A stretch of DNA of 64,000 bases from Photobacterium sanguinicancri (GTDB lineage Bacteria > Pseudomonadota > Gammaproteobacteria > Enterobacterales > Vibrionaceae). Both the position numbers and the translations under genes were made by a program. The notes under the pieces were generated by a model, which did not search any database, was not told the DNA's origin, and was given only the letters and a program-made list of their open reading frames with translations. Shown one piece after another: positions 7,361 to 24,023 of this stretch (position 1 is its first letter; each line of letters opens with the position of its first letter). The stretch spans positions 1,736,001-1,800,000 of the forward strand of contig NZ_AP024850.1 of assembly GCF_024346675.1 (NCBI RefSeq), in the 5' to 3' direction.

Positions 7361-7498
7361 ATGATTGTATACGGCGATTTACAATCAGGCGGTTATGAAG
7401 CACGTCAAATAATGGAACTGCGGTTTTTCTCGTCAACTGCTCAGGTGGATGCCTGTGAAGTGATGTGCGGTTGGAAAGTTAGTCGCCAGCACTATTAG
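7361..7498 (+). pseudogene. Possible glutathione S-transferase N-terminal remnant
   Basis: A 45-codon frame begins MIVYGDLQSGGYEARQIMEL. This resembles the first strand and helix of small bacterial GSTs (xxYGDLQSGNxYK). The remainder does not look like a GST and the frame ends at TAG 7496-7498. There is no ribosome site. It is best read as a truncated copy inside the 250-bp spacer. Confidence 0.3.
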
Positions 7499-7569
7499 CA
7501 TGGTATTCGCAGGTGTTTATTTTTGTGGGGATGCCCACCAATCTCAAAATATAACATTAAGAGGTAACA

Positions 7570-8022
7570 ATGATCCCAGTAAATACATCCATCGTTTCGG
7601 GTGTCGCGCTATCGGAAATTAACGGTGAAACAAAAATGCTGTTAATGAAACGAGTGAAAGGTGGCTTCTGGTGCCATGTTGCAGGCTCGATAGAAGACGG
7701 TGAGACTGGTATTAATGCTATTGTTCGAGAGTTTCAAGAGGAAACTCAAATAGAAGTAGAAAATTTGTACAACGCTCAATTCCTAGAGCAGTTCTATGAA
7801 CCTAGCGCGAATGTTATAGAGCTCATTCCTGTTTTTGTGGTTATGTGCCCACCGGAACAGGCGGTTATTTTAAATGAAGAACACACTGACTATAAATGGT
7901 GCACTTTAGAAGAAGCATTAGAACTCGCGCCGTTTCCAAATCAGCATGCTGTGTTTAAACATGTATGGTCATACTTTGTAGATAAAAAAGTGAATACGCT
8001 TTATCGAGTAAAGATCGGATAG
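7570..8022 (+). CDS. NUDIX hydrolase
   Basis: 150 aa. The Nudix box reads GSIEDGETGINAIVREFQEETQIEV: the GX5E, REUXEE and final acidic residues that bind Mg2+ are present, but the usual Gly near the end (EEXGU) is Gln. It hydrolyses a nucleoside diphosphate linked to another moiety; the substrate is unknown. A GAGGTAAC ribosome site precedes ATG 7570. The next gene starts 60 nt downstream on the same strand. Confidence 0.85.
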   Translation: MIPVNTSIVSGVALSEINGETKMLLMKRVKGGFWCHVAGSIEDGETGINAIVREFQEETQIEVENLYNAQFLEQFYEPSANVIELIPVFVVMCPPEQAVILNEEHTDYKWCTLEEALELAPFPNQHAVFKHVWSYFVDKKVNTLYRVKIG

Positions 8023-8081
8023 CAAAGCTTAGATAGAAAAGGCCAGGTAGAAAAGGCGATTTTCAGGAGGAAATTATAACA

Positions 8082-8777
8082 GTGAAGTATTGTTCAAATG
8101 AGTTTGATGAAGCATTAGACAGCCTTGGTCATTATCAGATCTATCCCGATCTAAAACCTTGGGTTGGTTGTGAATATGCCGCATCGAGAGTAAAGATTTT
8201 AGTGATTGGTGAAAGCCACTATTTAGATGTTGGAAGCACTTATCACCATAACCCAGAAGAATGGTACGCGGGTGTCACCGTATCAGATAAAGAAGATAAT
8301 GGCTGGATTAAGACGCGAAATATTATTTCCAACGGTATAAAGAGCAAATGGAAATCTAAGTCCAAAGCGATATACAGAAACATAGAGAAAGCGCTCTTTG
8401 AAAGTGAGGCTGATTTTCATCCGAGTTCAACCGCATTTAGTCGTATCGCATTTCTGAACTACTTCCAGCGCCCAGCGGAACAAACGGGTAAATCAATTAA
8501 GGTATCTCAGCTTGATGCTGATGTAAGCAAAAGTGTTGTGGGCCAAGTAGCTAAAGCTATTGCACCTGAAATCATCATATTCACAAGTTCACTGGCATAT
8601 CGCCATGCTAAACGAAGTGGTTTGTTAACCGAATTTGATGCGCAATCCATAAAATATACCCGAACGCCTCATCCTGGAATGCCATGGTGGAACCGAGTTT
8701 CTAAAGCTTATGGAAACCGCACGGGTAAGCAGCACTTTGTTGATTTTGTAAATTCAGCCGTAAAAATTGAGGCTTAG
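8082..8777 (+). CDS. Uracil-DNA-glycosylase-like family protein
   Basis: 231 aa from GTG 8082, behind AGGAGGA at 8066-8072. ILVIGESHYLD near residue 45 resembles the first motif of UDG-superfamily proteins, and TPHPGMPWWNR near the C-terminus resembles their His-Pro motif; EIIIFTSSLA is the preceding strand. True glycosylase activity is uncertain, since the Asp/Asn of motif 1 is replaced in GESHY. A 102-bp segment (8170-8271) recurs at 23115-23216 with 13 differences. The gene may have been duplicated or used as a recombination site. Confidence 0.6.
   Translation: MKYCSNEFDEALDSLGHYQIYPDLKPWVGCEYAASRVKILVIGESHYLDVGSTYHHNPEEWYAGVTVSDKEDNGWIKTRNIISNGIKSKWKSKSKAIYRNIEKALFESEADFHPSSTAFSRIAFLNYFQRPAEQTGKSIKVSQLDADVSKSVVGQVAKAIAPEIIIFTSSLAYRHAKRSGLLTEFDAQSIKYTRTPHPGMPWWNRVSKAYGNRTGKQHFVDFVNSAVKIEA
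8170..8271 (+). repeat. Direct repeat, left copy (inside UDG-like gene)
   Basis: The 102 bp encoding EYAASRVKILVIGESHYLDV to EEWYAG are matched at 23115-23216 in the same orientation, 89 of 102 positions by eye. The two copies bracket the ADP-ribosylglycohydrolase/WYL/helicase locus. Confidence 0.75.
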
Positions 8778-8874
8778 CAAAGCGATTAAAGCGAGGCTGG
8801 TATGTTTGCAGTGGTAGCCGTGGATAAGGCGTTGCTAAGGTTCTACTGCAATACATCTCTAAATGGAGTATGAA

Positions 8875-9264
8875 ATGTATAAAGGATCTTGCCTTTGTGG
8901 CGCTATCAAATTTGAAGTTTCTGGAGTACTTGAAGCAACAGATGCTTGCCACTGTAATCAGTGTCGGAAATGGACAGGACACTTTCTTGCCAGTGCTGAA
9001 GTCTCGCGGGACTCATTACTCATCGAGGGGGAAGCAAACCTCTCTTGGTATCACTCATCTGAAAAAGTTAGGCGGGGCTTTTGCTCACAGTGCGGATCAT
9101 CTTTGTTCTTCGATCCTATCGATAAAGAAAAGCACCATTGGATAGGAATTGCATTAGGGTCATTTGATAAGCCGACAGGGACAAACCTTGGGCAACATAT
9201 TTATGTCGCAGAGAAGGGGGATTACTATGACATTAACGATGATTTGCCGCAAAATGAACATTAA
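8875..9264 (+). CDS. GFA family (CENP-V/GFA zinc domain) protein
   Basis: About 129 aa, start MYKGSCLCGAIKFEV at ATG 8875, with GGAG at 8865-8868; an in-frame ATG at 8863 overlaps that ribosome site and is less likely. Zinc cysteines are in CLCG, CHCNQCRKWTG and GFCSQCGSSLFF, the full GFA pattern. Related proteins act as glutathione/formaldehyde adduct enzymes, but most members are uncharacterised. A paralogue lies at 56880-57281. Confidence 0.85.
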   Translation: MYKGSCLCGAIKFEVSGVLEATDACHCNQCRKWTGHFLASAEVSRDSLLIEGEANLSWYHSSEKVRRGFCSQCGSSLFFDPIDKEKHHWIGIALGSFDKPTGTNLGQHIYVAEKGDYYDINDDLPQNEH

Positions 9265-9882
9265 ATAAAGGCTCTCTACATCAAAAGTCGATGCTGCCGT
9301 TACCTCCAATAACTTGAAAGCATTCAGCACTAACTTAACATCTAGTTTTGTTTTATTGCTATGTTATTTTGTCCAAATAACCATACAAAATGTTAGGTTT
9401 AATAATAAACGTATTGATATCACACTGCTTTCATACTGCGCGCTTGGCCCACTCTTTTTTTGGGGCTTAAATGTTATGTGTATAAAGCACTAAGCTAGAT
9501 TTGAGTTCATGAATTATCTTATTTCGCATAAATTTAGGAGAGAGGATTTTAACAATGCTTGCATTATTTATTAGCCACCACTCAAAGGTATGTCTTGATT
9601 CTTCCAGAGACCATTGCTTTGTTGATGCCTCGAACCACTGATAATTTTCATGCGTAAAACCTGCATCTTCAAGTTGATTGGGTGTAGTGCTAACGAGTGG
9701 GCTGCGGTTTTACCTGAACTTAAGTAATAAGTAGCCATATAATGCGATCTTGTTTGTATGTTTATTAAAGTGATTCACCGCAAATGTTGGAATCTTTATT
9801 GACGTTATTCATTGTTTGCCGTTATTAACGTGCTGATTGTTAGCGAACTGTTTGTTAACGCATTAAAAATGTTAATAACTGA
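9265..9882. other. 618-bp spacer at the edge of the cassette block
   Basis: There is no intact gene. It holds the minus-strand remnant at 9467-9719 and AT-rich sequence with several GTTAACG/TTAACG motifs near 9820-9880. This is where the uniform + strand gene block ends. Confidence 0.5.
9467..9719 (-). pseudogene. C-terminal remnant, probably of a WYL-domain regulator
   Basis: Minus-strand frame open from 9719 to TAA 9467-9469. It encodes STTPNQLEDAGFTHENYQWF, FEWWLINNASIVKILSPKFM and RNKIIHELKSSLVLY. The segment IVKILSPKFMRNKIIHEL followed by a final L-x-Y resembles the C-terminal WCX extension of WYL transcription factors (VLSPxxLRxxVxxEL). There is no start or N-terminus. The identification rests on this short tail only. 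Confidence 0.35.
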
Positions 9883-10440
9883 CTACCCCTCCTTGCCTTC
9901 ATGTGTTAGATCTAAGTTGCTTAGGAAAAGAGAGAACAGATTCGAATTGTCGAGTTTGTTATCTCTAGGCGAAGTATCTAACCCATCATACTCAGAACAC
10001 TTGTAGAGAGCATTCTTGTGGCGGCGCAAAGAATAGTCCCCAGTTTCATATCCAATACAATCCATTATAAGCCACTCTATATTTATGTTGTCCAGCGGAG
10101 GGTGAAAGCAATGCTCTGGGAATAACCCTTCCAATAATGATAGTTGTTTCTCTAGAAAGGCTTGAGCGGGGGAATCAGGCACCTCTGAATACCAACATTG
10201 CAGGTCTTGGTATATGGCTGTTAGATATTGCTCTTTATGAAAAGTGCCGTTAAAACTAATTTCTTGAAAGCGGCGTCTATCTTTGGGTACTTGCGTACTC
10301 TGTTCTATTGTGCGGTAGAAGTCTTGCAAAAATAACATGGACTTACTTAGGTACAAGTTTGCAGGGTGATGTGCACCTTTTGCAAGGCGGTGCCGCCTTG
10401 ATAGCTCACTCTTGTTTTTTCTAATCAATTTGCGTTTCAT
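9883..10440 (-). CDS. Hypothetical protein, third gene of the ADP-ribosylglycohydrolase operon
   Basis: 185 aa, family not recognised. It is basic at the N-terminus (MKRKLIRKNKSELSRRHRL), then mixed, with several aromatic and acidic residues and no membrane helix (KEQYLTAIYQDLQCWYSEVP, NINIEWLIMDCIGYETGDYS). It starts 10 nt after the 73-aa gene and shares its operon. Its position with an ADP-ribosylglycohydrolase suggests either an accessory factor or a target/toxin, but nothing in the sequence decides this. Confidence 0.55.
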   Translation of the reverse strand: MKRKLIRKNKSELSRRHRLAKGAHHPANLYLSKSMLFLQDFYRTIEQSTQVPKDRRRFQEISFNGTFHKEQYLTAIYQDLQCWYSEVPDSPAQAFLEKQLSLLEGLFPEHCFHPPLDNINIEWLIMDCIGYETGDYSLRRHKNALYKCSEYDGLDTSPRDNKLDNSNLFSLFLSNLDLTHEGKEG

Positions 10441-10450
10441 GCTTTGTAAC

Positions 10451-10672
10451 CTAATAGTCTGGATTGAGTGACAGCTTTACATCGTTTCCGAGAGTGTCTT
10501 GTATATGACTCATTATGTCTTCGATGGAAGCATTATGGAGTCTGACAATAATTAAACTCGCGGCGTGATCCCAGTACATGATCACGCCATCGAGCTTATT
10601 TCCAACATGAGGGTTAAGCAAACCTTCTAATTCACCAACCTCATAACTATTATGAATATAAATTTCCTGCAT
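10451..10672 (-). CDS. Small hypothetical protein between ARH and 185-aa genes
   Basis: 73 aa, acidic, predicted alpha/beta (EVGELEGLLNPHVGNKL, ASLIIVRLHNASIEDIMSHI). It starts 9 nt after the ADP-ribosylglycohydrolase gene ends and is followed 10 nt later by another gene, so it is translated within the same operon. There is no signal or membrane segment. Not recognised; the spacing and clean frame support a real gene. Confidence 0.55.
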   Translation of the reverse strand: MQEIYIHNSYEVGELEGLLNPHVGNKLDGVIMYWDHAASLIIVRLHNASIEDIMSHIQDTLGNDVKLSLNPDY

Positions 10673-10681
10673 AACGTCACT

Positions 10682-12172
10682 TTAATTTTGTGAGCTTTTG
10701 TTGGATTGATATGCGTAGATAATGGCAGATAAATCATCAAGTAGATCACTGACCGTTTCCCACTTCATATCAAAGTTATTTAGGGTAAATTGATAGCCAT
10801 CGATCGGGGATGACGAACCGTCAATACCCAAAGTTTCCGGTAGATCTTGGGTGAGAACAAAGTAGTTAACGAATCCTTGGTCGGACATACCGCCGTCTCC
10901 TTCTGAATTACAGAATATGTGCATATAAGTCACGTCATCGACCTCAACACTATCCACATGAGCGAGATAGATTTTTTCAAGATCACAGAATGAACTGCTC
11001 TCTGTTATTTGGAGGTCAGGCATCCCAAATGTGTAGCGTATATACGCACAAATATGCTGTAACAATGACTCTCTTGTTTGGTTAATTCGACAATCCAGTA
11101 TTGGGCACTGGTGAATACGTTTTTGCTGTTCAACCTCGGAATACTCCAAATCATCTAATGCTGATATAAGTTCAGGCTGTTTTAACTTGAAGTAAGTTGT
11201 ACTGGGCTCAGTTATTTGAGTGTTTGAAGTAAACGCTAGCACTGTTGCGGTTTCAGCTATTTTTTCACGCCAATACAGCTTGTCTAACCATTCATTTGGG
11301 ATCGCTTCGGCGCCGTAATAGGCTCCAGCAATTTGGCCATAGACAGCACCGGTAGTGTCAGCATCATCACCTAGATTAGCAGCAAGTAGCGCGCCTTCTT
11401 TGAAAGTATTAGACTGAACAAAGCACCAAATGGCCGCTTGAAGTGAGTCAACAACATAACCGCGACCAAAAATATCTTGGCGTGTTGTTGTTGACTGAGT
11501 CGCAACCGCAATCGCATGGCGCAACTCATTCACTTCCTTGGTTTGTGTGTTACACACAGGAAAGCTTTCGAGTAATTGGTTTAGAAACTCTTGTTTAGAT
11601 CCTTCTCCAACAAACAGTTGAGACAATAATTGAGCAAGCATACGACAAGCTTCGACAGCTCGCTGCTCTCCATGAGTGGGTAGAGAGCTCAGCGCTGCAT
11701 AGTTGATGGTTTCTTGCAGTGAATAACCCTTAATGTGTGAATAAAAGATCACGATGGGTGCGAGGCGCATAATACTGCCATTCCCAGCAGAGCGTGGCGC
11801 AGTGGAGCCTGCATTCGGCTTGCCGTTTACCTCAAAATTCGTCAATGCATGAGAAACAGTGAGTCCAATATCAAAACACTCTCCGGTGCACGAGTTGTAG
11901 CCAAAATCGCGCCAACGAATATAGCGCTCAAGTTGATCTTGTGGATCGTGTTCTCCGCATTCTAATAGGGAGTCGGCTAAGCATAGTGCCATTGAAGTAT
12001 CATCTGTCCACTGGCCAGCTTCCAATACAAATGGGCCGCCACCCACCATATCTGTGATGGGGTCAAAACTCCCCTTAGCTTTAAACTCTAGGGTTGTACC
12101 AAGCGCATCTCCAATGGCAAGCCCGAGTAAACAGCCTTGTGCTCGTGAAAAAAATGCATTCCGTTTTGACAA
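10682..12172 (-). CDS. ADP-ribosylglycohydrolase with C-terminal extension
   Basis: 496 aa. Residues 1 to about 310 form an ADP-ribosyl hydrolase (ARH/DraG) fold: GLAIGDALG at 17-25, the metal ligands in WTDDT (Thr56-Asp58), AGNGSIMRLAP at 129-139, and GDDADTTGA at 268-276, which supplies the other di-magnesium ligands. All expected ligands are present, so it should remove ADP-ribose from protein or nucleic acid. Residues from about 330 form an extra domain (IYLAHVDSVEVDDVTYMHIF, DFGM/YIRYTFG region) that I do not recognise. It is divergent from the WYL regulator, 110 bp away, and heads an operon with two small genes. Confidence 0.85.
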   Translation of the reverse strand: MSKRNAFFSRAQGCLLGLAIGDALGTTLEFKAKGSFDPITDMVGGGPFVLEAGQWTDDTSMALCLADSLLECGEHDPQDQLERYIRWRDFGYNSCTGECFDIGLTVSHALTNFEVNGKPNAGSTAPRSAGNGSIMRLAPIVIFYSHIKGYSLQETINYAALSSLPTHGEQRAVEACRMLAQLLSQLFVGEGSKQEFLNQLLESFPVCNTQTKEVNELRHAIAVATQSTTTRQDIFGRGYVVDSLQAAIWCFVQSNTFKEGALLAANLGDDADTTGAVYGQIAGAYYGAEAIPNEWLDKLYWREKIAETATVLAFTSNTQITEPSTTYFKLKQPELISALDDLEYSEVEQQKRIHQCPILDCRINQTRESLLQHICAYIRYTFGMPDLQITESSSFCDLEKIYLAHVDSVEVDDVTYMHIFCNSEGDGGMSDQGFVNYFVLTQDLPETLGIDGSSSPIDGYQFTLNNFDMKWETVSDLLDDLSAIIYAYQSNKSSQN

Positions 12173-12237
12173 GATAAGTTACTCCATTTAGACCATGCGT
12201 TAGACGATGTCTATGGTAGAGTAGAATGATAAGATAC

Positions 12238-12262
12238 GATATGTGGTAAAAGTGTACATATC
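12238..12262. promoter_or_regulatory. Inverted repeat in the ARH/WYL divergent promoter
   Basis: GATATGT (12238-12244) and ACATATC (12256-12262) form a perfect 7-bp inverted repeat with an 11-nt spacer. It lies 21 nt before the WYL start and 66 nt from the ARH start. WYL regulators of the BrxR/CapW type bind inverted repeats in their own promoters, so this is the best operator candidate. The half-site ACATATC also occurs at 13218-13224, upstream of the phosphatase gene. Confidence 0.5.
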
Positions 12263-12282
12263 TTAATGGTATTGAGGTTTTT

Positions 12283-13122
12283 ATGAAGTGGGATCAGCAC
12301 CAAAGGTTTAGATTAATAGAGCTCATCGCCTATTGGGAAGGCCGTTTAACAACCAATCATTTGTGTGAAAGCTTTGGTATTGGTCGACAGCAAGCATCAA
12401 AGGATATTAACTTCTATATTCAACATATTTCTAGCACCAACCTTATTTATGATCGCAGCCTGAAAGGGTATGTGCCAAGTGAAGAATTTGAACCTAAATT
12501 CATAACGGGTAATGCCCAAGAGTTCTTGAATCTACTGGCTAGTCAGGAAGCCAGTGCGAATATCTTTGCGCCTATGGAGTTTACTGGTGGATCGGCCTGC
12601 TCATTACCTATTCCCATGCGGGAAGTGAACGCTGAGCATGTGCGAAAAATTCTATTGGCTTCGAAAGGTCATTTAAGATTAGAAATTGCCTACCGTTCAA
12701 TGAATAAACCCGTCGCTGAAAAGCGTGTAATTACACCTCATTCTATCGTTTGTACCCCTTTGCGTTGGCATGTTCGAGCTTATTGCGAAAAGAACAGTGA
12801 GTATCGAGACTTCATTTTAAGCCGATTTGAAGGGCCACTAACGGTTCTTAATGAGTCGGGTCATACAAAGCAAGATGATAGGAAGTGGCAGGAAAGCGTT
12901 GATATTATATTTGCTCCAGACCCACGTTTGTCTCAGGATCAGCAATCTATCATTCGCCATGAATATGGTATGGAGGATGGGAAGATTATAGTGAACTGTC
13001 GGCTCGCACTGGTCCGCTACACTCTGCACGCATTGAATGTCTATTTAGAATATGAAGATAAAATTGTTGGTAGACAACAATTGATAGTGGTAAATAAAGA
13101 GGAAATATTGAGCCACCTTTAG
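12283..13122 (+). CDS. WYL-domain transcriptional regulator (BrxR/CapW-like)
   Basis: 279 aa. N-terminal winged helix (about 8-60: RLIELIAYWEGRLTTNHLCE, FGIGRQQASKDINFY), then a WYL domain (about 125-190: RLEIAYRSMN, ITPHSIVCTPLRWHVRAYCE, FILSRFEG) and a C-terminal dimer/WCX-like part. This order and length match BrxR and CapW, repressors that control defence operons and are thought to sense nucleic acid or nucleotide ligands through WYL. It sits between two divergent operons, with a candidate operator just upstream. Confidence 0.88.
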   Translation: MKWDQHQRFRLIELIAYWEGRLTTNHLCESFGIGRQQASKDINFYIQHISSTNLIYDRSLKGYVPSEEFEPKFITGNAQEFLNLLASQEASANIFAPMEFTGGSACSLPIPMREVNAEHVRKILLASKGHLRLEIAYRSMNKPVAEKRVITPHSIVCTPLRWHVRAYCEKNSEYRDFILSRFEGPLTVLNESGHTKQDDRKWQESVDIIFAPDPRLSQDQQSIIRHEYGMEDGKIIVNCRLALVRYTLHALNVYLEYEDKIVGRQQLIVVNKEEILSHL

Positions 13123-13275
13123 CCTTCTTTCTAGAGTATTTTAGTTGGCGACTAAGCAAAGTGATGGCGAGCTAATCTCACTTTAGGCTCAGCATTTGAG
13201 GTGTGTCACTTAGAGCGACATATCAGAAATGAGTTTATTTATAGTACGATGGCCCATTATTTAAAGGGGGATTTT

Positions 13276-14217
13276 GTGCACAATTTAATTTTTATTGGTG
13301 ATGTACATGGGCGCAGCGACAAATTGCTTTCCTTCATTCAACGATATGGCTGTGACGATACCCAGTTCGTATTCGTCGGTGATTTAATTGATAACGCGTT
13401 AAACGAAGAGACAGACCATTTAACTACCTTGAATACGATTCACCAGCTATGCGAACAAAGCCGGGCGGTTTGTATCATGGGCAACCATGAACTGAATGCC
13501 ATCGGTTGGAGTTTACAGAAGAGTGATGGCAGTTATTGCCGGCCAAGAAATAAATTAGGTAACCTCAAACAGCATCAGTGTTTTTTAGCGGCCGTTGGTT
13601 CAGATAGTGCTGAGCACCAACGTTGGGTTGAATGGTTCAAGTGCTTACCGATATTTGTTGAATACGACCATGCCCGAGCCATTCATGCTTGTTGGAATCA
13701 GCAGGCTATTGATCAGATAAGACCATACTTAAACTCAGATAACTCTCTAAAAGATCAATTCTGGTATCAAGCTTTTGATGAACAGCATGAACTTTACCAT
13801 TTGTTAGAGACGTTATTAAAAGGGCCAGAGCTTGCGTTGCCAAAAGGTTATAGCTTTTTAGATCAAACCGGTATTGAGCGCACACAGGTTCGTGTCGCTT
13901 GGTGGAAAGGTGAGGCTGAAAGTTTAAGTTATGCGGATATCGCACTGTTACCCGAAGAGGCGCGTAGTCAATTACCTCAACAAATGATTCCAGTCACAGT
14001 GCAAAGAATGTGTGCCAAGCCAGAGAAACTGACGGTAATTGGTCATTATACTCTTCCCGTGACAAGAGCTCCTCAGACTATTGGTCAGAATGTTGTTTGC
14101 GTTGATTTCAATGCGGCGAAAGGGAGCAACCCGTTAGTAGGTTATAAGCTTGATGTGAGTAATCAATTAGGTATTTTCGTGCACAACTATATCGATGATT
14201 TAATGTTAAATACTTAG
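13276..14217 (+). CDS. Calcineurin-like metallophosphoesterase (PP2A/ApaH-like)
   Basis: 313 aa from GTG 13276, chosen because AAAGGGGG (13263-13270) precedes it and the conserved domain begins at once (LIFIGDVHGR); upstream in-frame starts at 13201 and 13249 add residues over a probable promoter. Metal-binding motifs are complete: GDVHG (Asp9, His11), FVGDLIDN, GNHE (69-72) and later His residues (RAIHACW, VIGHYTLP). Relatives dephosphorylate proteins, cleave diadenosine polyphosphates, or repair RNA ends. It is the first gene of the phosphatase-471aa-PLD-helicase operon, 10 nt before the next gene. Confidence 0.85.
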   Translation: MHNLIFIGDVHGRSDKLLSFIQRYGCDDTQFVFVGDLIDNALNEETDHLTTLNTIHQLCEQSRAVCIMGNHELNAIGWSLQKSDGSYCRPRNKLGNLKQHQCFLAAVGSDSAEHQRWVEWFKCLPIFVEYDHARAIHACWNQQAIDQIRPYLNSDNSLKDQFWYQAFDEQHELYHLLETLLKGPELALPKGYSFLDQTGIERTQVRVAWWKGEAESLSYADIALLPEEARSQLPQQMIPVTVQRMCAKPEKLTVIGHYTLPVTRAPQTIGQNVVCVDFNAAKGSNPLVGYKLDVSNQLGIFVHNYIDDLMLNT

Positions 14218-14227
14218 AGTCGACAAA

Positions 14228-15643
14228 ATGTTTCTTAAAAAATTTTTCACCGAGTTTGACGATACACTGACTCAATCCTTAAATATTGATGCATTAGGGA
14301 TGACGATGATTTGGTCTCGGTTAGGTCAAGACATCTTTCACAACCGTGTTAGCTCTATCTCCAATGATGTACGCAATTATACCCTGAATCTCCTTCACCA
14401 CTACGTAATTAAACAAGTAGTAGAGTCGCAAGTACGATTAAGCAGTGGTTTACACTCGGTGTACGGTCACACCGACACGTTGGCGTTTAAACAAGCGTGC
14501 TTAATCTATTTAGAGAATTTATTCGTGTTCTCTATGCTTCAAGCAGAAGCGAATCAACAGTGGAAGGTACAAACACAAGGGATCCTAGGAACTTCAAAGG
14601 CGCGTTTACTTCTCAGTGCGGGTACGCTAACCCAACCGCTGCTGTTTACTAAAGAGCAGTCAGGTCAATTGTTAATAAGGCAGCTGACCTTAGGGGTTAG
14701 CGGTCGTTACAAAACGCCTTTTACTGAAATGATGTTTTTTGATAAAGAGTATCGCTACCATCACCCCCAAAGCGCCTTACTATGGGAGAAAACGTCAAAG
14801 TTCATTGAAATGAATGAAGGGTTGAGAGACTTAGCAACTACCTTGGTGGCGCATTTTCACAATGTGGTCAAATTGGATGCAAAAGTTCCTGAAATTTCAT
14901 GGCAAGAAGTGTCAGAACAGATCAAACAAGCGTATGCACAGCAGTTTTCGACTCCTGCTATTGTAGGTGAACAAAGTAAAGCGTTTTGGCTTAATGTCAC
15001 TGAACTTGATAAAAATGCAGCAGGTTCACTTTATGGGATAATCGATGCCAACCAATCTGACATTGATTCCAAACAATCTAACTTAAAGACAGTCCAGCCT
15101 TTTTTTGAACAAGCGATTAAAAATGAACAAGATGAGGCTGAAAGACAGAAACTAATTCATATCTGCCGTGTAGAGCCGCTACTTGCTGAGTGTGAGCTGC
15201 TGTTTACGGTGCTAATGAATCAACGAGTTCAAACAGAGGAAGATATCTATAAACGCTATCTCGGATTAGGTCGTAACGTCAGCTCAATTATCCATCTTGC
15301 ACGTGAACTGCAAAACGAGATAAGTATTAAGTCCAAGTTTTCAGGTGTCGCTCAAAAACGCTATGAACAGCTATTGGCTTTGGGGACGTTGGAGGAAGCG
15401 AATTCACTAGATAACATGATCACACTTGTCGAAGAGTTATTGAAATACCACCTTACAATCATGAATCAACGTGGTCAAAGTCCGTGGGTTGAGCGTGATA
15501 GTCAAGGTGATTATCGTTGCCATATAAAACTGCGAACCTTGCCAACAGCTGAAACAAGGCCCTATAAATCATGGTTCAATCGCTATTATCTTGATCAGTT
15601 TAGCCAGCTTATTCGTGGCTTAGAGGGCAAAGTGAATGACTAA
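14228..15643 (+). CDS. Unknown 471-aa protein of the PLD/helicase operon
   Basis: No recognised domain. Mostly alpha-helical and polar, with helical stretches at about 45-75, 240-330 (DEAERQKLIHICRVEPLLAE) and 330-430 (NVSSIIHLARELQNEIS, YEQLLALGTLEEANSLDNMI). There is no signal peptide, membrane helix or obvious nuclease motif. It follows the phosphatase by 10 nt and overlaps the PLD gene by 8 nt (ATGACTAA), so its product is probably made in step with them. It could be a scaffold or sensor subunit; that is inference from context only. Confidence 0.7.
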   Translation: MFLKKFFTEFDDTLTQSLNIDALGMTMIWSRLGQDIFHNRVSSISNDVRNYTLNLLHHYVIKQVVESQVRLSSGLHSVYGHTDTLAFKQACLIYLENLFVFSMLQAEANQQWKVQTQGILGTSKARLLLSAGTLTQPLLFTKEQSGQLLIRQLTLGVSGRYKTPFTEMMFFDKEYRYHHPQSALLWEKTSKFIEMNEGLRDLATTLVAHFHNVVKLDAKVPEISWQEVSEQIKQAYAQQFSTPAIVGEQSKAFWLNVTELDKNAAGSLYGIIDANQSDIDSKQSNLKTVQPFFEQAIKNEQDEAERQKLIHICRVEPLLAECELLFTVLMNQRVQTEEDIYKRYLGLGRNVSSIIHLARELQNEISIKSKFSGVAQKRYEQLLALGTLEEANSLDNMITLVEELLKYHLTIMNQRGQSPWVERDSQGDYRCHIKLRTLPTAETRPYKSWFNRYYLDQFSQLIRGLEGKVND

Positions 15644-17633
15644 ACCATTTAAAATGGCTGAAGAATTGACGAGACAGCTTCAGTCATTAGGGCAAATCAA
15701 ACATGCGTGGTTCACGACATTCAACCTCAATATGGATTTTTTTGAGCTGCATGTGTTGTCAACGTTATTGCAAATGGATAAACCGCGCAGTCGAATTGAT
15801 TTTGAGTTAATGCAGCAAAAGTTAAACGGTCGCGTCAAAGACACACGAAAAGGTGCTGTTACCGCGAGTATTGATGTAAAAGTGTTTGCGGATCAACGCA
15901 TGTATGATGCTAGCGATCTAAAACGCACTGCGATTGAAGTGTATGGCGTTAACCCTGCTTTACTTGATGGCGGCCGAAAGAGAGTGTTGAATAACAGTAC
16001 TCTTTTTCATCCTAAAGTTATCTATCTTCAAGACGAAGAGGGACGGGTGATACTAGGAGCGGGAAGTGCGAACTTGACACTCAGTGGTTGGTCGACCAAT
16101 CAAGAGGTCTTCACCTTTCAGCGCGTAGAGTGTAAACATCAGGTAGAAGCGATTCGAGCATTTTTTAGGCCACTGTTTGAAGCCAATAGAGTTGAAACTA
16201 AAGTCCTTCCTCAAACAAAGATGCGTTCTGACATTCAACCGTCAGATTGGCATTTTGTCCATACGTTCATCAAAAATAGCAGTGATGGAAGACATAAGAC
16301 ATTATTGAATCATCTGTTGAATCATTCAGTGGATGAATCACGTGATTTAGTTGTTTGGTCACCCTATTTTCCTTCAGATCTTACGGGGTTCATACAGCGT
16401 CTAAAAGCTGTGGCATCACCAAGCCTACTGAAACTACATATTGTGCCTGACTTGGTTGAAAATCAACGTATGCGAACCCAGTGGTCAGAAGATTTATTCC
16501 CCTTGCTTGACGAGTCAGTGTGCTTTTATCGTAGCCCTGTAGGGAAAGATGATAGAAGCGAGTTGTGCCATGCCAAAGTGTGGATGACAGAAGAAAAACT
16601 GGCGATAGGATCTTGGAATTTTACCTCGCCAGGCTCAAATATTGATTTAGACCGTAAAGATACAGGGCAGGTTAACATCGAAGCGGGAATCATTGTGGTT
16701 AATCAACAACAGTTAGCACCTGTATTGACGAAACCATTGAGTATTAACAAAGATCATTTCATGCAAGATACTGAACTTAGCCAGCATTCGCTTGAAGTCA
16801 CGGATCTTATGCCGATTGAAATTCGTGTGGTCTTTGATTGGAAAATACTCGCATATGAAGTTGAACTGAATAAGATTAATAACGCTCTAGAGTGGAAAAG
16901 TGTCGAGCTACGCTTACCTGACGTTGAAACCCCTCTAAAGTTTGAAATTCAAGAAAACGAAGCGATTTACACCACTAAGATCACGCTGGTTCAAGAACCA
17001 CAAGCTTTACTAGTAAACCATGCCTATGAGCTAATTTTAGCTGGTGGTACCCGCTATCGAGGTTTTATTGTCGAATGCAATAGTCTTATGCGACGAGTGG
17101 AAGAGTTTGAGTCTCTTGATGACATTTTCAATAGTCTTATTGACGGGCGCTCTTTACAAAGCAACCCTAGTGCATCGCTTCGCAGTGTGTTACTTGGCAA
17201 TGACCAAGATTGGTTAGAAGAGCAAGGAGCTGGTTCATCAACTGAGCCACAGTTATCGTCAGCAGTGAGCTACTTTAGAATGTTTCAAGCGATGGACAGC
17301 TTTGAACAGCGTATTAGCAGTTTAAAAACTGACTCGATGCGAGAACAATACGCTTTTGTTATACCGGGCTGTCTGGTTGAAATGCGGTCAAAAATAGGTG
17401 ATGAAATGGCAAAAAGTGCCAATGTATTTAATTGGTATATGAAACAAGAGTTTAATTTGCTCGTAGATCTTGTAAAGAACGAAGCTGAAGGTGATGCTCT
17501 TAAACTACGTTTGAAAGAGTTGCGAATTGAAAGCAACGATAGCGAGGCTCGATCGACAGGCCTTCAACAATGCATTGGAAGTCGTGAGTATCGAAAACTC
17601 ATAAAAGGTAAGTGTGGTTATGTCTCTGTCTGA
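15636..17633 (+). CDS. Phospholipase D superfamily nuclease-like protein
   Basis: 665 aa. Two HKD half-sites are visible: FHPK with GSANLTLSGW (His125, Lys127) and CHAK with GSWNFTSPG (His312, Lys314). The two-HxK layout is that of PLD-type nucleases such as DrmC-like or restriction-associated enzymes, not lipases. The C-terminal about 300 aa (DWKILAYEVELNKINNALEW onward) are unassigned and may bind DNA or a partner. It overlaps its neighbours by 8 and 20 nt, indicating translational coupling with the 471-aa protein and the helicase. Confidence 0.83.
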   Translation: MTKPFKMAEELTRQLQSLGQIKHAWFTTFNLNMDFFELHVLSTLLQMDKPRSRIDFELMQQKLNGRVKDTRKGAVTASIDVKVFADQRMYDASDLKRTAIEVYGVNPALLDGGRKRVLNNSTLFHPKVIYLQDEEGRVILGAGSANLTLSGWSTNQEVFTFQRVECKHQVEAIRAFFRPLFEANRVETKVLPQTKMRSDIQPSDWHFVHTFIKNSSDGRHKTLLNHLLNHSVDESRDLVVWSPYFPSDLTGFIQRLKAVASPSLLKLHIVPDLVENQRMRTQWSEDLFPLLDESVCFYRSPVGKDDRSELCHAKVWMTEEKLAIGSWNFTSPGSNIDLDRKDTGQVNIEAGIIVVNQQQLAPVLTKPLSINKDHFMQDTELSQHSLEVTDLMPIEIRVVFDWKILAYEVELNKINNALEWKSVELRLPDVETPLKFEIQENEAIYTTKITLVQEPQALLVNHAYELILAGGTRYRGFIVECNSLMRRVEEFESLDDIFNSLIDGRSLQSNPSASLRSVLLGNDQDWLEEQGAGSSTEPQLSSAVSYFRMFQAMDSFEQRISSLKTDSMREQYAFVIPGCLVEMRSKIGDEMAKSANVFNWYMKQEFNLLVDLVKNEAEGDALKLRLKELRIESNDSEARSTGLQQCIGSREYRKLIKGKCGYVSV

Positions 17634-20343
17634 TTGGGCGAATTTGACGCCAGAAACTGTTTCACAGCAAATGAGCTTCGTAGAAAATGATAAAACTTGG
17701 CGCTATCAAGCGAGTAATAACACCTCTATGCCAGCTAAACAGGCCGAGGGTGTCGCGTATCTGTGTCGTTTGTTACAACAATATAACCTTGCCTTGCTTG
17801 CCGATGAGGTGGGTATGGGTAAAACGTTTCAAGCGATAGGTATCATTCGTTTGTTGCAACAGCTAAAACCAAATGCAAAAGTGTTGGTGATTGGACCAAA
17901 TAGAAATATTTGCTCACAGTGGAAAGGGGAGTTTGGCGCTTTTGATGAAAGTCACTGGCACGGTTATGTACCAGAACCACTAATGGTGGCAGAACCTGAA
18001 TCGAAACTAGCAGATATGATCACACGTGTAGGGGAAGGTGAACACCATGTGTATTTTACCACCATCCATGCATTGAGTGGATTGACTAAAGAGTTAGACA
18101 CAACGAATAAGGTAGAGCTAGCTCGCCAACAAGCACTTGAGTTAAAAGATCGTGTAATGAACTACCTTGATCAGCAAGGGTTCGATCTATTAGTGATTGA
18201 TGAGGCGCACTATCTCCGTGCCCGAGAGGGGGGTTCTCAAAAAGTTGCTGCCGCAAAAGCTTTCTTCGGTGAGGCTGACGGAGAAACAAGACTAGCACAA
18301 AATGTTTTGTTAATGACGGCAACGCCTACCCATTCATCAGTTTATGATGTCGCAAATATATTGCGCTATTTTACACCAGAGGAAGAACTGAAAAATAACG
18401 CAACCAAAAGCGATTATGACGCCGCTCAATTGCTACAAAAATATGGCTTGAGACGTTTACGCTTGTTACAAGATAGTAATGGTATCCATTACACGAAACA
18501 GCACTATCGTAAAGAGATTGGTCAGCCCGTTTCTTTTGCAAAGCATCAAAATGCTGAGCTGTTTTTTGGGCTTTATCAGCGCCAGTTGGTTAAACAGGTT
18601 CAAGCTAGAGCATCAAATCGTAAGTTTCTTTATGGGTATCTTGAAGGGTTTGAATCCTTTGGGGAGCATGAGCTAAAAGCAGTCGAGTTTGATGATGAAC
18701 AATCAAGTGCAGATCATGGTAAAGAGGCATTTAGCAAAGCGCTTGATACAAAGTTACTAAAGGAGCTAAGTGAAGAATATTATCAATGTTTTAACCAATT
18801 TCCAGAGCATCCTAAGTACAAGGAGCTGGTTGATAATGTTGTCCCTAGAACGCTGACGCAGCCATGCCTTAATGATATTAAACATTTGGTGTTTGTGCGC
18901 CGTATTCCCTCGGTACGGGAGTTAACGAAACGAGTAAATACACAATACGATGATGTATTGGGGCAAATGTTGGCTAAAGCTTTAGGTCTGGATGAAAATG
19001 AAAAGAACGCTTGGCAGCAAAGCTATTGGAGCAGGGCCTGGTTAAATCGTCACCGTAAAAGCAAAAATAATGAAGAGGCTGAAGAATTAGATAATTCAGA
19101 AGAACTGACGTTAGAAGAAAATCAAGAAATCAACGAGTTAGGTGAAGATGATCACCAACTCCGTTCACGGATCACAGAACTATTTGTGATGAAAAAACGT
19201 CCCAAAAAAGGTCCCGATGAGCAAAGTGATCATGCGGACGTAGAATTTCAAAATACTCGATGCACGAATGTAGCTCTTCGTTTTAGAAAACCTGAGAGCA
19301 TTTTCTCTCTATTTCTAGAACCATCATTAGATTACGAAAGTGAAGAGTATAGTTACTATTTTGAACATAAAATAGGCAGCCGTAAACGTGCTGTTTATTC
19401 AACAGCGGCGCTTTACCAACGGTCACAACGACACGATTTGGAAAAGGTTTCTGTCGATGAAGAAACTCGTATTGACGTTGGCTTACCCACGATTTGGCAA
19501 TACCTTTTCGAACGGCTGAGTGACAAAGAGAAAGCATTGCTTCACCAGTGGAAGCCAGAGACCAAAGAGAACTTTGCGAACTACTTTAAGGCAGGGATAT
19601 TGTTTGCAAGTCCAGTGATGGTAGAGTTGTTTTGTTGGTTCTATTGTTTTAATCATGGAGATGAAAAGTCTAAAAGTGGCGAAAGTGCACATGCTCGTTA
19701 CTTAGGTTTTATCCAATATATATTGCCTAAGTTATCCGATTCGATGTTGCTGTGGTATTTCAAAGCGGCGCTAGAGACATTTGAAGATATGTGTAAGAAA
19801 GTTGCTCGTGTCAAGCTTGACGGCTATACCGATGACTGGCGAGTCTTAAAAGGTCATACTTCACCTGCTGCGTTTGCCAGCGGTGAAACTTCGAACCGCG
19901 ACAGCTTACAATTAAGTTTTAATTCGCCGTTTTACCCCAATGTATTAGTCGCGACATCAGTCTTTCAAGAAGGGGTTAACCTGCATTTGCAATGTAATCA
20001 GGTTCATCATTACGGAATTGCGGGAAGCCCGGGCGATCATGAGCAACGTGTAGGGCGGGTAGATCGACTGTTTAGTAAGGTCAATAGGCAGTTCCAAAAC
20101 GGCGAACGAGGTGAGCTGAAAATTAGCTTCCCATACTTAGAAAATTCGTTTGATGAAGACCAATTGGCCTCATTTTTAGAGCGAAAAACCCGTGCTGAAA
20201 GTAAGTTGGATAAATGTCTACTAGATACTAATGATGCCCAAATCGGAACGGGAAAAGCGGAGAACTGGCAGGGGTATTTAAAGCAACCAGAGGCAGCGGA
20301 TGAAAGCAAAGTTGAAGACCCATACCCAGCTAGGTTTGAGTGA
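17614..20343 (+). CDS. SNF2-like superfamily 2 helicase
   Basis: 909 aa from GTG 17614 (ATG 17620 is a possible start). SF2/SNF2 motifs in order: motif I DEVGMGKT (64-71), motif II DEAH (196-199), motif III LMTATPTHS, then a long charged insertion (about 480-560) and the C-terminal RecA domain with VATSVFQEGVNL (motif V) and QRVGRVDR (motif VI, 811-818). All ATPase residues look intact. The arrangement is RapA/DrmD-like, typical of DNA translocases in phage defence. It is the last large gene of the operon and is followed by a 28-codon frame and a terminator. Confidence 0.88.
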   Translation: MVMSLSDWANLTPETVSQQMSFVENDKTWRYQASNNTSMPAKQAEGVAYLCRLLQQYNLALLADEVGMGKTFQAIGIIRLLQQLKPNAKVLVIGPNRNICSQWKGEFGAFDESHWHGYVPEPLMVAEPESKLADMITRVGEGEHHVYFTTIHALSGLTKELDTTNKVELARQQALELKDRVMNYLDQQGFDLLVIDEAHYLRAREGGSQKVAAAKAFFGEADGETRLAQNVLLMTATPTHSSVYDVANILRYFTPEEELKNNATKSDYDAAQLLQKYGLRRLRLLQDSNGIHYTKQHYRKEIGQPVSFAKHQNAELFFGLYQRQLVKQVQARASNRKFLYGYLEGFESFGEHELKAVEFDDEQSSADHGKEAFSKALDTKLLKELSEEYYQCFNQFPEHPKYKELVDNVVPRTLTQPCLNDIKHLVFVRRIPSVRELTKRVNTQYDDVLGQMLAKALGLDENEKNAWQQSYWSRAWLNRHRKSKNNEEAEELDNSEELTLEENQEINELGEDDHQLRSRITELFVMKKRPKKGPDEQSDHADVEFQNTRCTNVALRFRKPESIFSLFLEPSLDYESEEYSYYFEHKIGSRKRAVYSTAALYQRSQRHDLEKVSVDEETRIDVGLPTIWQYLFERLSDKEKALLHQWKPETKENFANYFKAGILFASPVMVELFCWFYCFNHGDEKSKSGESAHARYLGFIQYILPKLSDSMLLWYFKAALETFEDMCKKVARVKLDGYTDDWRVLKGHTSPAAFASGETSNRDSLQLSFNSPFYPNVLVATSVFQEGVNLHLQCNQVHHYGIAGSPGDHEQRVGRVDRLFSKVNRQFQNGERGELKISFPYLENSFDEDQLASFLERKTRAESKLDKCLLDTNDAQIGTGKAENWQGYLKQPEAADESKVEDPYPARFE

Positions 20344-20439
20344 TTATATGGCGGCTCTGACTTATGGTTTAAGGAAGAGCTCTTGCTCAATAGCTAATTT
20401 ACTGAGCTTCTAGTAGTCATAAATGAACTTAGTTAGACA

Positions 20440-20526
20440 ATGGAAGATTGGTTACGTACAGCCTATAGGGTCGCAAGAGAAGGGGACCGCTTAGAGTATC
20501 TGTTTAGTGATGAGCATAGCTATTAG
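20440..20526 (+). CDS. Possible 28-aa small ORF before the operon terminator
   Basis: ATG 20440 to TAG 20526 encodes MEDWLRTAYRVAREGDRLEY plus eight residues. It lies 96 nt after the helicase and 14 nt before a strong terminator, so it would be on the operon transcript. It has a helical, charged composition but no clear ribosome site. It could be real or chance. Confidence 0.25.
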   Translation: MEDWLRTAYRVAREGDRLEYLFSDEHSY

Positions 20527-20540
20527 CGGGTGGGGAAGGT

Positions 20541-20579
20541 AGGTCTATGGAATAGAAAGGCTTTCGACTCCATAGACCT
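20541..20579. terminator. Stem-loop between convergent operons
   Basis: AGGTCTATGGA (20541-20551) pairs perfectly with TCCATAGACCT (20569-20579); the loop holds a nested GAAAG/CTTTC pair. It sits between the end of the helicase operon and the end of the convergent DUF4236 operon and can serve both directions. Confidence 0.75.
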
Positions 20580-20597
20580 TTGTATGTAGCGATTATG

Positions 20598-21038
20598 CTA
20601 GCGGTTGAGGTAAAACAAACCGCCTAAAATAGCGAAGTTAATCGCCCAATTGATGGTTCGTGTATGAGCAAAGTAATAGAACGTAGTAAAGAGATAACCG
20701 CCATTTGCTTCTTTGGGTGAGTCCTCTCCGTATTCTAATTCATCTTCTTCGCTGGAACACGCCTTACTCTCTGTAGGATCAGAGGTAGTGAGTTTTGCGG
20801 AAGAAGCCTTTTTTGATGAGGAGTCATCTAGGCTTTCGTGGTATGACAATCCACTTCCCGGAACACCCAATGTACCGCGTTTGACTCCAAGAGAACCATC
20901 TTTTTTAGTTCCGACATTAACGTTGGCTCCAGGTACACCAACGGTTGAACTTGTCGTCACTCCGTTCTTGCCTGACCAACTAAGGTTGAATGTGAGCCCT
21001 GGTGCAACCTTGACTCTTTTTCGAAATCTTAATCCCAT
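20598..21038 (-). CDS. DUF4236 domain protein with C-terminal membrane helix
   Basis: 146 aa. Residues 1 to about 62 match the DUF4236 pattern: MGLRFRKRVKVAPGLTFNLS, the SGKNGVTTSSTVGVPGANVN segment and TLGVPGSGLSY. A Ser/acidic linker follows, then a C-terminal membrane helix (INWAINFAILGGLFYL). DUF4236 proteins recur near toxins and defence genes, but their biochemistry is unknown. It is the last gene of a four-gene minus-strand operon; the next gene upstream ends 10 nt away. Confidence 0.8.
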   Translation of the reverse strand: MGLRFRKRVKVAPGLTFNLSWSGKNGVTTSSTVGVPGANVNVGTKKDGSLGVKRGTLGVPGSGLSYHESLDDSSSKKASSAKLTTSDPTESKACSSEEDELEYGEDSPKEANGGYLFTTFYYFAHTRTINWAINFAILGGLFYLNR

Positions 21039-21047
21039 GATAAAGCC

Positions 21048-21272
21048 TTACAGAATACGTCTTAGTAGGAAGCGGAAAATTGGAATAACGACTAGCAAGG
21101 ATACTAGCACTAAGTTTGTCCACTCAAGTTGTGTGTTTGGTAGTCGACTGACTTGCTCGAACCCGTGGATCTGGGTGAAAAGTAAGAAACAGAAAAACAA
21201 CCACGAAGACGTGTGCAATATCCAACGTCCACTGGTGAATAGCATGACGAGGAGATCAAAAACAACAAACAT
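21048..21272 (-). CDS. Small two-helix membrane protein
   Basis: 74 aa with two hydrophobic stretches, one near the N-terminus (FVVFDLLVMLF through LFFCFLLFT) and one at the C-terminus (TNLVLVSLLVVIPIFRFLL). It lies between the 236-aa gene (4 nt) and the DUF4236 gene (10 nt), so it is co-transcribed. Not recognised. Confidence 0.55.
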   Translation of the reverse strand: MFVVFDLLVMLFTSGRWILHTSSWLFFCFLLFTQIHGFEQVSRLPNTQLEWTNLVLVSLLVVIPIFRFLLRRIL

Positions 21273-21276
21273 AGAA

Positions 21277-21987
21277 TTACCTAGTTAGCAAAAAATCTGG
21301 ACCACCAAAAACAGAGTAGTCGTAGATTAAGGTGGCTTTTACACTGCAGCCAATGCCGTTATTTCTGCAGTTGTTCTTTGCATATTGCACTACATTGGCA
21401 TGAACTTTTTGGGCGTGATTTTTTGGATCCGATAATGAATCCATCTTTTCTAGCAAAGCTAATTGGTCACTGATCTTTTCTAACTCATCAACACCTTCAA
21501 AGGCGATATTTAGGTCGAAGTTGCCTTTAAGCTGTTCGTTGTGAGCTTGTACTCGAGATGACAGTGAACTCATTGCTTGAGAAAACAGTTTGTCGTCTTG
21601 CTTAGTGAGCAAATAAACATCGGCATTCTTATAATCTAAAGCAACAAATTCAGAGGTGTAGCTTTCACAATGTTGAATTCCATTACAGGTTTCAAGTATT
21701 CTTGGAAATGCTCTTACAACGTATTGACCTAGTAGGTAGGCTGAATTGTTTTTAGCTGCCTCAACTTTTGCCATGGTATGCCAATGAGTATGATTTTCTA
21801 ATGTAACAACAAATTCACCTTTATTGTTTCTCGGTAGCTCAGCTTTAGGGAGTAGCCCATAGGTGATCGTATTCACGGCGTACATAACTCCAGCCGTTCC
21901 CGCGATAACTGGTAGCACAATAGTTATCACAAAAAACGTAAGAGCAAGGCCGATAATTGTATTTAATGGATCGGAAGCTCTACTCAT
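21277..21987 (-). CDS. Hypothetical membrane-anchored protein
   Basis: 236 aa. One long hydrophobic segment near the N-terminus (about 9-40: IIGLALTFFVITIVLPVIAG) is followed by a soluble domain with five cysteines (CNGIQHCES, NCRNNGIGC), plausible for a periplasmic or extracytoplasmic domain with disulfides. A heptad-like stretch at 140-190 suggests a coiled coil. Its start overlaps the stop of the 293-aa gene (ATGA type), so the two are translated together. No family recognised. Confidence 0.6.
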   Translation of the reverse strand: MSRASDPLNTIIGLALTFFVITIVLPVIAGTAGVMYAVNTITYGLLPKAELPRNNKGEFVVTLENHTHWHTMAKVEAAKNNSAYLLGQYVVRAFPRILETCNGIQHCESYTSEFVALDYKNADVYLLTKQDDKLFSQAMSSLSSRVQAHNEQLKGNFDLNIAFEGVDELEKISDQLALLEKMDSLSDPKNHAQKVHANVVQYAKNNCRNNGIGCSVKATLIYDYSVFGGPDFLLTR

Positions 21988-22868
21988 TAAAACACCTCGA
22001 GAACGAATTTTTTACATGCCAGCAAGAACAGGATAGGCAAAATGATGGTCTTAAGTACAAAAAGCATCATGAGGTTGATAAATTTGATCATCGCATTATC
22101 GATTGACTCCATAACAGAAACAATCATCTCTTTAGGCCCTGCAACCGTCGATTTAACAGTATCCCACTTTTTAGACATACCGCTCATAAAACCCTCGCTT
22201 TCTTCATTCTCCGTGGTTTCTTCGGGAAGAGAAGTCAATACATCCATTTTCTGCGAAATAGACTTTGATAGCTCGGTAGCTTGAGATTCATTTTCATTGA
22301 TTGATTTCTCGATGAATAGGTAATCAGCACCTAAAGATAGAGATACCGAGACAATGACAGAAAAACGAACAATCAGCAGCACTTTAAATGCTTGAGTTGC
22401 TTTATCTTTATAGAATGATAAAGACTGAGCCCACAATGTTGATAGCAAAGCGCCACCCGATAATACGATTAGGAAGTTGAATAACTTGCTAGACATGGTG
22501 ACCAGTAGAAATTTTTGCAGGCTTAAAGAGGCTAAGGCAAGCGCCATCGTATGCTTAAATAGATCTAACATGTCGCTGATTGAGTTCAGCAGTTGCCCAA
22601 TATCAAAAGACGCTAACCCTACAGAAAGTTCAACACTTTTAAACATTGAAACTAAGGAATCAAGTAGAGAGGCAGTACCGAAAGTGATGAGAGCAGAGCT
22701 TAAAGAGTGATTAACCGCATCATGTGCTATACGATCAAGAGCGGAGGAGCAAGCAATGAGCATTAGCAATGCAATAAATAATGAATAAGATGCTTTCTTA
22801 GTGAGTATTGGGGACTTCGTGCTTTTTTGTTCAAGATTTGAAGTAATAGTGGTCATAGTATTCAACAA
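21987..22868 (-). CDS. Hypothetical multi-pass membrane protein
   Basis: 293 aa with about five or six hydrophobic segments (near 27-45, 58-75, 104-125, 130-150, 163-185, 262-288), an acidic loop (PEETTENEESEGFMSGMSKK) and a final KKFVLEVF tail. It is the first gene of the minus-strand operon. It might act as a transporter-like or pore component with the two following anchored proteins, but no transport signature is seen. Unknown. Confidence 0.6.
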   Translation of the reverse strand: MLNTMTTITSNLEQKSTKSPILTKKASYSLFIALLMLIACSSALDRIAHDAVNHSLSSALITFGTASLLDSLVSMFKSVELSVGLASFDIGQLLNSISDMLDLFKHTMALALASLSLQKFLLVTMSSKLFNFLIVLSGGALLSTLWAQSLSFYKDKATQAFKVLLIVRFSVIVSVSLSLGADYLFIEKSINENESQATELSKSISQKMDVLTSLPEETTENEESEGFMSGMSKKWDTVKSTVAGPKEMIVSVMESIDNAMIKFINLMMLFVLKTIILPILFLLACKKFVLEVF

Positions 22869-23114
22869 GAAGTAATAGTAAAAAATCTAATATGCACTAT
22901 ACAGTACAGCACTCCGTATATCTAGGCTTGTTTGATTTGTCTAATTACTAGAGCTAAAAGTAGTTCGTTTTAGAAGATGCTCAGTGATGAACGTAGAGCG
23001 AGTGGAAGAAGTTTTTACACATAAGGCCTTGGACTCTTTTACCGTATTTCGAATACAAACTATGGTAAGTTAAGCTAGTTAAATGTGGTATGTTGTAAAA
23101 ATGTGGCTCTGTTC

Positions 23115-23216
23115 GTGAACATGCCGCATCGAGAGTAAAAGTGTTAGTGATTAGTGAAAGCCACTATTTAGATGTAGAAAGTACGTATCACCATAACCCT
23201 CAAGATTGGTATGCGG
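23115..23216 (+). pseudogene. Fragment of a UDG-like gene (right direct repeat)
   Basis: Encodes EHAASRVKVLVISESHYLDV and then ESTYHHNPQDWYAD in one frame, the counterpart of residues about 30-63 of the protein encoded at 8082-8777. Nothing of the rest of that gene is present on either side. The GES motif reads SES here. Confidence 0.8.
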
Positions 23217-23948: not shown

Positions 23949-23965
23949 TCTATCATTGATTAAAT

Positions 23966-24000: not shown

Positions 24001-24023
24001 TATATCAAATTAACCGTAGAAAA

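Follow-up and report, generated by a model that had tools for sequence, protein, structure and literature searches.

A candidate inducible defence locus pairing an ADP-ribosylglycohydrolase operon with a PDC-M27 triad in Photobacterium sanguinicancri

Gene content of the locus

We describe a candidate anti-phage locus in a 64,000-nucleotide stretch of Photobacterium sanguinicancri contig NZ_AP024850.1. This whole stretch is called the window here, and coordinates are those of the window. The locus sets an ADP-ribosylglycohydrolase (ARH) operon beside the three genes of PDC-M27, a candidate system of the PADLOC database. Eight predicted open reading frames are present, three on the minus strand (ARH and two small genes) and five on the plus strand (WYL, phosphatase, a 471-residue protein, a phospholipase D (PLD) protein and an SNF2 helicase, in that order). 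An initial annotation, made from the sequence alone, had given the same reading frames, order and overlaps, and all of them were found. Its locus end at 20526 was too far to the right, since the genes end at 20343.

The ARH is a Tri1/DraG-like protein of 496 residues at 10682-12172 on the minus strand (PF03747, ADP_ribosyl_GH, 257 bits). Also on this strand are small genes of 73 residues (10451-10672) and 185 residues (9883-10440), neither of which matches a model in Pfam, NCBIfam or PADLOC. A divergent control region at 12173-12282 separates ARH from the plus-strand gene for a WYL-domain transcription factor (279 residues, 12283-13122; PF13280, 38.6 bits). It is followed on the plus strand by a calcineurin-like metallophosphatase of the PPP superfamily (338 residues, 13201-14217; PF00149, Metallophos, 42 bits). 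The mostly helical PDC-M27A (471 residues, 14228-15643) comes next. It overlaps by 8 nucleotides with PDC-M27B, a PLD-superfamily nuclease (665 residues, 15636-17633; PLDc_2, 35 bits). M27B overlaps by 20 nucleotides with PDC-M27C, an SNF2-type helicase/translocase (909 residues, 17614-20343; ResIII and SNF2, 59 and 57 bits). The Pfam scan agrees with every domain call that had been made. All of these genes fall within 9266-24207, a stretch that has no counterpart in a relative and is probably an insertion; we refer to it as the island.

The PDC-M27 triad

The last three genes match PADLOC models over their full length: PDLC04552 at 593 bits for M27A, PDLC04553 at 728 bits for M27B and PDLC04556 at 1226 bits for M27C. 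We agree with the initial annotation that this is a defence-type locus. A search with M27A gave 36 genome loci and 3 plasmid records, and 38 loci were compared (the 36 and two of the three plasmids). M27A, M27B and M27C stand in order in 32 of these 38 other loci, with M27A partial in one of them (L036). This supports the proposal that the three genes form one conserved unit. Four of the six incomplete loci (L007, L009, L021, L034) end no more than about 400 bases past the last match. The other two, L030 and L038, have neither M27B nor M27C although flanking sequence is present. The longer order that begins with the phosphatase fared less well. The triad keeps its order in unrelated genomes, but among 41 M27 loci phosphatase-471-PLD-helicase was found only in the window. 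Judging by the record titles, the loci belong to gamma-, beta- and alphaproteobacteria, and no relative was found in phage records or viral contigs. The neighbours of M27 vary, with type I restriction-modification and RepB among them.

The active sites are intact. M27B has two HxK...GSxN motifs (H125/K127/G143/S144/N146 and H312/K314/G325/S326/N328), whose residues are kept in at least 97% of 34 length-selected rows. The same level holds for G67/G69/K70/T71, D196-H199 and Q811-R812..G814-R815 of M27C in 26 length-selected rows. An AlphaFold2 model of M27A has a mean pLDDT (predicted local distance difference test score) of 86 and gave no significant fold match in the PDB.

The ARH arm

The ARH scores 296 bits against the NCBIfam Tri1 model NF041672, under the model cut-off of 490. 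Its solved relatives include 2cwc and 6dre, and the nearest named ones are DraG/Tri1-type hydrolases. Active-site residues T56-D57-D58 and D270/D272/T273 are invariant in 12 aligned rows. Residues from about 325 to 496 form a C-terminal extension with no assigned fold, and stand-alone proteins like it (26-28%) occur in three loci (L090, L099, L102). Pfam gave no match for the extension or for the small genes, peptide-binding chaperones (vWA, SseB, TY-Chap) included. The 185-residue gene travels with the ARH family. Relatives at 32-35% lie near ARH in genomes G012 and G108, which also have M27, and in G225, where the relative adjoins an McrB-like gene. The 73-residue gene has no relative in the loci compared.

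The WYL gene is on the same strand as the phosphatase and M27 genes, lies 5' of them and diverges from ARH. Its relatives at 75-76% in G012 and G108 are likewise divergent from ARH. An operator-like sequence, TTACCACATATCGT, lies in the control region at 12236-12249 on the minus strand. The 11-base core TTACMACATAT was found in 8 of 176 loci, which come from four genomes (the window, G012, G108 and G225). It always sits at the ARH/WYL junction, and in G225 only a WYL remnant was found. We regard this core as a lead, not proof, for a candidate WYL operator because the pattern was chosen by eye from three of the four genomes.

The phosphatase carries the motifs GDVHG/GDLIDN/GNHE, and its ligand positions D34/H36/D61/N95/H96/E97/H162/H282 are invariant in 25 rows. 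Its true start may be later than predicted, for example at the ATG at 13249, since similarity to the family begins only at about residue 26-31. It is separated from ARH by 1.0 kb, a gap that holds the WYL gene. A sample of 296 genomes of the host's family was searched, with a cut-off of E 1e-10 for the phosphatase and E below 1e-30 for close ARH. Seven of the ten phosphatase-bearing genomes have ARH no more than 2 kb from it, which argues that the phosphatase partners ARH rather than the triad.

One can imagine that ARH and phosphatase act on something other than macromolecular adducts and degrade a soluble signal from another system, such as an ADP-ribose derivative or a capped nucleotide. 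The nearest solved relatives of the phosphatase, all weak, would suit this: 4j6o (presumably the Pnkp phosphatase domain), a psychrophilic tyrosine phosphatase, Rhizobiales-like phosphatase 2 and a diadenosine tetraphosphatase. A Cas_NE0113 gene between McrC and ARH in locus L091 also fits. However, no signal-making enzyme was recognised among the scanned island proteins. The nearest named solved relatives of ARH, moreover, are of the DraG/Tri1 type, and such hydrolases act on protein adducts. We consider the soluble-signal explanation very improbable.

Some smaller genes recur near this arm. A conserved protein family of 100-145 residues with a shared LFPEEYD recurs next to the phosphatase, and two Vibrio loci that are nearly identical have it next to M27 (L085 10992-11312, L086, L088, L089 11553-11888, L097, L098 and L107). 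The island has a DUF4236 protein at 20598-21038 on the minus strand, and a 123-residue protein that looks DUF4236-like by eye precedes the phosphatase in L097 and L098. A Cas_NE0113 gene, annotated as a Csm6 ring nuclease and which we take to be CARF-type, lies directly 5' of ARH-phosphatase in L091 and L092/L105. A gene of the Cas_NE0113 cluster is also near ARH in L104.

Pairing of ARH with M27 and Azaca

Pairing was counted in 41 loci chosen by M27A, several of which have short flanks, some under 2 kb. ARH lies 2-5 kb from the triad in six of the 41: the window, L085, L086, L004, L009 and L013. It must be noted that L085 and L086 are near copies and that L009 and L013 are related. The initial annotation asked whether the ARH operon travels with the triad, and on these counts the pairing does recur. 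Two nearly identical Vibrio genomes also show the divergent WYL/ARH layout of the window. The ARHs of L009 and L013, which are alphaproteobacterial, are fused to a DSP-type phosphatase (DSP-PTPase-ARH), so the phosphatase type varies while ARH stays. A Sphingopyxis locus (L019) has a 31-residue ARH fragment immediately 5' of M27A, and a Rhodoferax locus (L002) has a macro-domain gene 6 kb from M27.

The family sample points the same way. It has M27A in 5 genomes, the phosphatase in 10 and close ARH in 26. All five M27A genomes have a close ARH, compared with 26 of 296 overall (hypergeometric 4e-6, or 6e-4 when collapsed to 3 lineages). In three of them (the window, G012 and G108) ARH is divergent at a distance of about 2 kb; in G123 it lies 2.2 kb downstream, and in G097 on a different contig. 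The 36 M27A genomes hold 10 ARH matches in 8 genomes. Three of these are within 5 kb of the triad, where uniform placement predicts 0.037.

ARH also occurs beside Azaca (ZacA-ZacB-ZacC). ZacA was sought in 369 genomes of the class and found in six, and ARH is less than 2 kb from Azaca in two of these six loci (L156 and L153). L156 reads WYL, ARPP, a gene, ARH and ZacABC, with ARPP matching PF20208 at 344 bits. In L153 ARH comes 1.2 kb after ZacC. Also among the six is G694, where ZacA is 2.3 kb from WYL, 8.4 kb from phosphatase and 10.4 kb from ARH. In another Photobacterium genome, G076, ZacABC is followed on its own strand by ARH, phosphatase and a small gene, with ARH and phosphatase overlapping by 4 nucleotides. 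G076 was kept out of the Azaca count because it was found through ARH and phosphatase.

The arrangement in G076, with ARH and phosphatase directly 3' of ZacABC, invites another explanation. The two enzymes could regulate the restriction complex itself, stripping M27 or host proteins of ADP-ribose or phosphate and so acting as a switch, either on/off or for self-protection. There is a precedent, as DraG-type enzymes undo regulatory ADP-ribosylation in DraT-DraG pairs. Such a switch is hard to square with the Pfam scan, which found no ADP-ribosyltransferase among 12 island proteins (a 132-residue reading frame at 23550-23948 and the genes outside the island were not in the scan). Most M27 loci also have no ARH in the available flank. 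We think a regulatory switch improbable.

Interpretation

We argue that this locus is best read as an inducible two-arm defence. A predicted ARG-centric eraser module, of a class compared below, would be joined to a PDC-M27 arm that restricts DNA. We put the probability of this at roughly 45%, judging from gene content and sequence. The eraser would be directed against phage ADP-ribosyltransferases. Phages such as T4 carry these enzymes (Alt, ModA/ModB). The phage would ADP-ribosylate host molecules and ARH would strip the ADP-ribose. The phosphatase would deal with phosphorylated leftovers or with a second phage-made modification. WYL would sense the released nucleotide, and its repression of both divergent operons would be lifted. 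An M27ABC restriction complex would then attack the phage DNA, with M27C as the motor, M27B as the nuclease and M27A as a helical adaptor. ADP-ribosylation damage would also raise M27, because the WYL gene stands between both operons. What the sequences show is the gene content, the intact motifs, the conserved core, the recurrent pairing and the absence from relatives; each functional step of the scheme is inferred from these.

Several observations weigh against this two-arm reading. The same cassette also adjoins McrBC. Locus L091 reads McrB, McrC, a small gene, Cas_NE0113, ARH and phosphatase. A Vibrio casei plasmid (L092) has the same order with an insertion sequence (IS) element in McrC, and L097 and L098 read McrB, McrC, small genes and phosphatase. 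The phosphatase adjoins M27 only in the window and, as a 36% fragment, in L033, out of 41 M27 loci. For distant phosphatases (27-41%), which occur in 16 further genomes of the class, linkage to ARH is the exception: two of these genomes have any ARH and only G694 has it nearby. If ARH is enriched 20-50-fold in defence islands, the probability of three nearby matches rises to 0.04-0.28; a control for such enrichment matched nowhere and gave no correction. The ARH cassette is portable, not dedicated to M27.

The two halves might then be neighbours in a defence island, independent and functionally uncoupled, perhaps with a common control region. Counted for such independence and against coupling are the 35 of 41 M27 loci with no ARH in the available flank. 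So are nine of 16 ARH contexts in the family that have no M27, Zac or McrBC match (16 of 25 non-window genomes). The varied neighbours of M27 fit as well. Independence does not explain why ARH recurs at 2-5 kb from the triad and at less than 2 kb from Azaca, or why it is constant while the type of phosphatase changes. The window's WYL gene, moreover, heads the phosphatase-M27 strand and diverges from ARH. We hold independent neighbours to be a real possibility, if not a probable one.

A wider version of the two-arm defence can be stated. An ADP-ribose sensor-eraser (ARG, WYL and an exchangeable phosphatase) would have been repeatedly wired to DNA-destroying cores such as PDC-M27, Azaca and McrBC. 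Phage ADP-ribosylation would be undone and would at the same time license restriction of DNA. As a general strategy this is unlikely.

Island boundaries and neighbouring genes

Relative G047 has 121 bp in place of window 9266-24207 (14.9 kb). It matches window 7424-9265 and 24208-25034, meeting them at L174 positions 4710 and 4832. The stretch is probably an insertion, the alternative being loss in G047, and the island is probably mobile. In G079, a genome of the same species, neither M27A nor the phosphatase nor ARH has a match.

A pair of genes for proteins of 236 and 293 residues at 21277-22868 (minus strand) is possibly part of the ARH module. Relatives come directly after ARH in the near-identical Vibrio loci L085 and L086 (53/46% and 66%), and one relative comes directly after WYL in L131. 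The 293-residue protein appears membrane-bound by eye. The functional unit may therefore be larger than 9883-20343 and take in this pair.

Towards the right end of this probable insertion lies a gene fragment at 23110-23216, a degenerate 107-nucleotide copy (86%) of the 5' portion of the gene at 8082-8777. Short repeats at 24048-24129, 24149-24265 and 25902-26002 have many copies in Photobacterium genomes, and contigs of G017 carry copies of the last at spacings of about 1.4-3.2 kb. These repeats are perhaps integron attC sites or miniature inverted-repeat transposable elements. A reading frame at 25436-25876 (minus strand), near the right boundary, resembles an IS110-type transposase fragment by eye.

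Comparison with known systems

DISARM consists of DrmA, DrmB and a methylase with DrmC/DrmD. The window resembles it in having a PLD protein (like DrmC) and an SNF2 helicase (like DrmD). The initial annotation drew this comparison and concluded that the locus is not DISARM, and we agree. The best DrmD model reaches 55 bits against 1226 for M27C, and DrmC reaches 14.7 bits. The matches to DrmA, DrmC and DrmD are weak and partial. No DrmB or methylase is among the matches listed for the eight locus proteins (for the helicase, the best 25 of 38 families). DISARM is rejected on these grounds.

Azaca is the closest named system by gene order: a protein without assigned function, a PLD protein and an SNF2 protein, as in M27. 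ZacC is given as a helicase in PMC12278908. Only the helicases are clearly united by profile comparison (hhalign), with M27C and ZacC at 98.5% probability over 62 columns. M27B and ZacB match weakly (29%), and M27A and ZacA not significantly (probability 1.2, from 6 ZacA sequences). One of 40 M27A-family members matches the ZacA model, at E 0.0027. PADLOC gives the window partial matches of 20.9 bits for ZacB and 93 bits for ZacC; the M27 models score 728 and 1226. The architecture of M27 is like that of Azaca, yet we do not class M27 as Azaca.

PDC-M27 itself is present, as 14228-20343 holds three full-length matches, adjacent and in order. No PADLOC model matches the window's ARH, its phosphatase or either small gene, and its WYL protein matches generic CRISPR-associated WYL models only. 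The term PDC-M27 was not found in the open-licence literature searched.

The ARH arm compares best with a class described in a 2022 paper, whose authors we take to be Iyer, Burroughs, Anantharaman and Aravind. Its main text predicts host ARG-centric systems that counter phage ADP-ribosylation (Iyer et al. 2022, PMC9503650). These have an ARG domain and no partner ADP-ribosyltransferase. A WYL or Nudix transcription factor is given for over 42% of them and a coupled phosphatase for a little over 55%, usually of the rhodanese-phosphatase type and sometimes calcineurin-like. The DSP-type fusion is the commoner phosphatase form in the class. Chaperones (vWA, SseB, TY-Chap) are often present, and nuclease and helicase genes are variable. 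ARPP, found above next to Azaca, is the paper's ARG-associated protein. The window has the features named there: an intact ARH, a divergent WYL, a phosphatase and no ADP-ribosyltransferase in the 12 scanned proteins. It differs in its effectors. Those in the main text have a restriction endonuclease fold and are sometimes helicase-linked, whereas the window has PLD and SNF2. The words phospholipase, PLD, HKD, SNF2, SWI2 and McrB do not occur in that main text.

The initial annotation called the locus undescribed, and this stands only in part. The triad was already a PADLOC candidate, and the ARH/WYL/phosphatase type was predicted in 2022. Their recurrent pairing looks new. We did not find it described in the open-licence literature, a scope that takes in neither the supplement of Iyer et al. 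nor the original Azaca and PADLOC-candidate papers. Judged by the openings of their abstracts, the papers found there gave no experimental test of the predicted ARG-centric erasers. The present locus offers a compact setting in which to test them, with a predicted eraser beside a DNA-restriction triad and a likely regulator between the two. It would also place the triads of PDC-M27 and of the Azaca type in a regulatory context.

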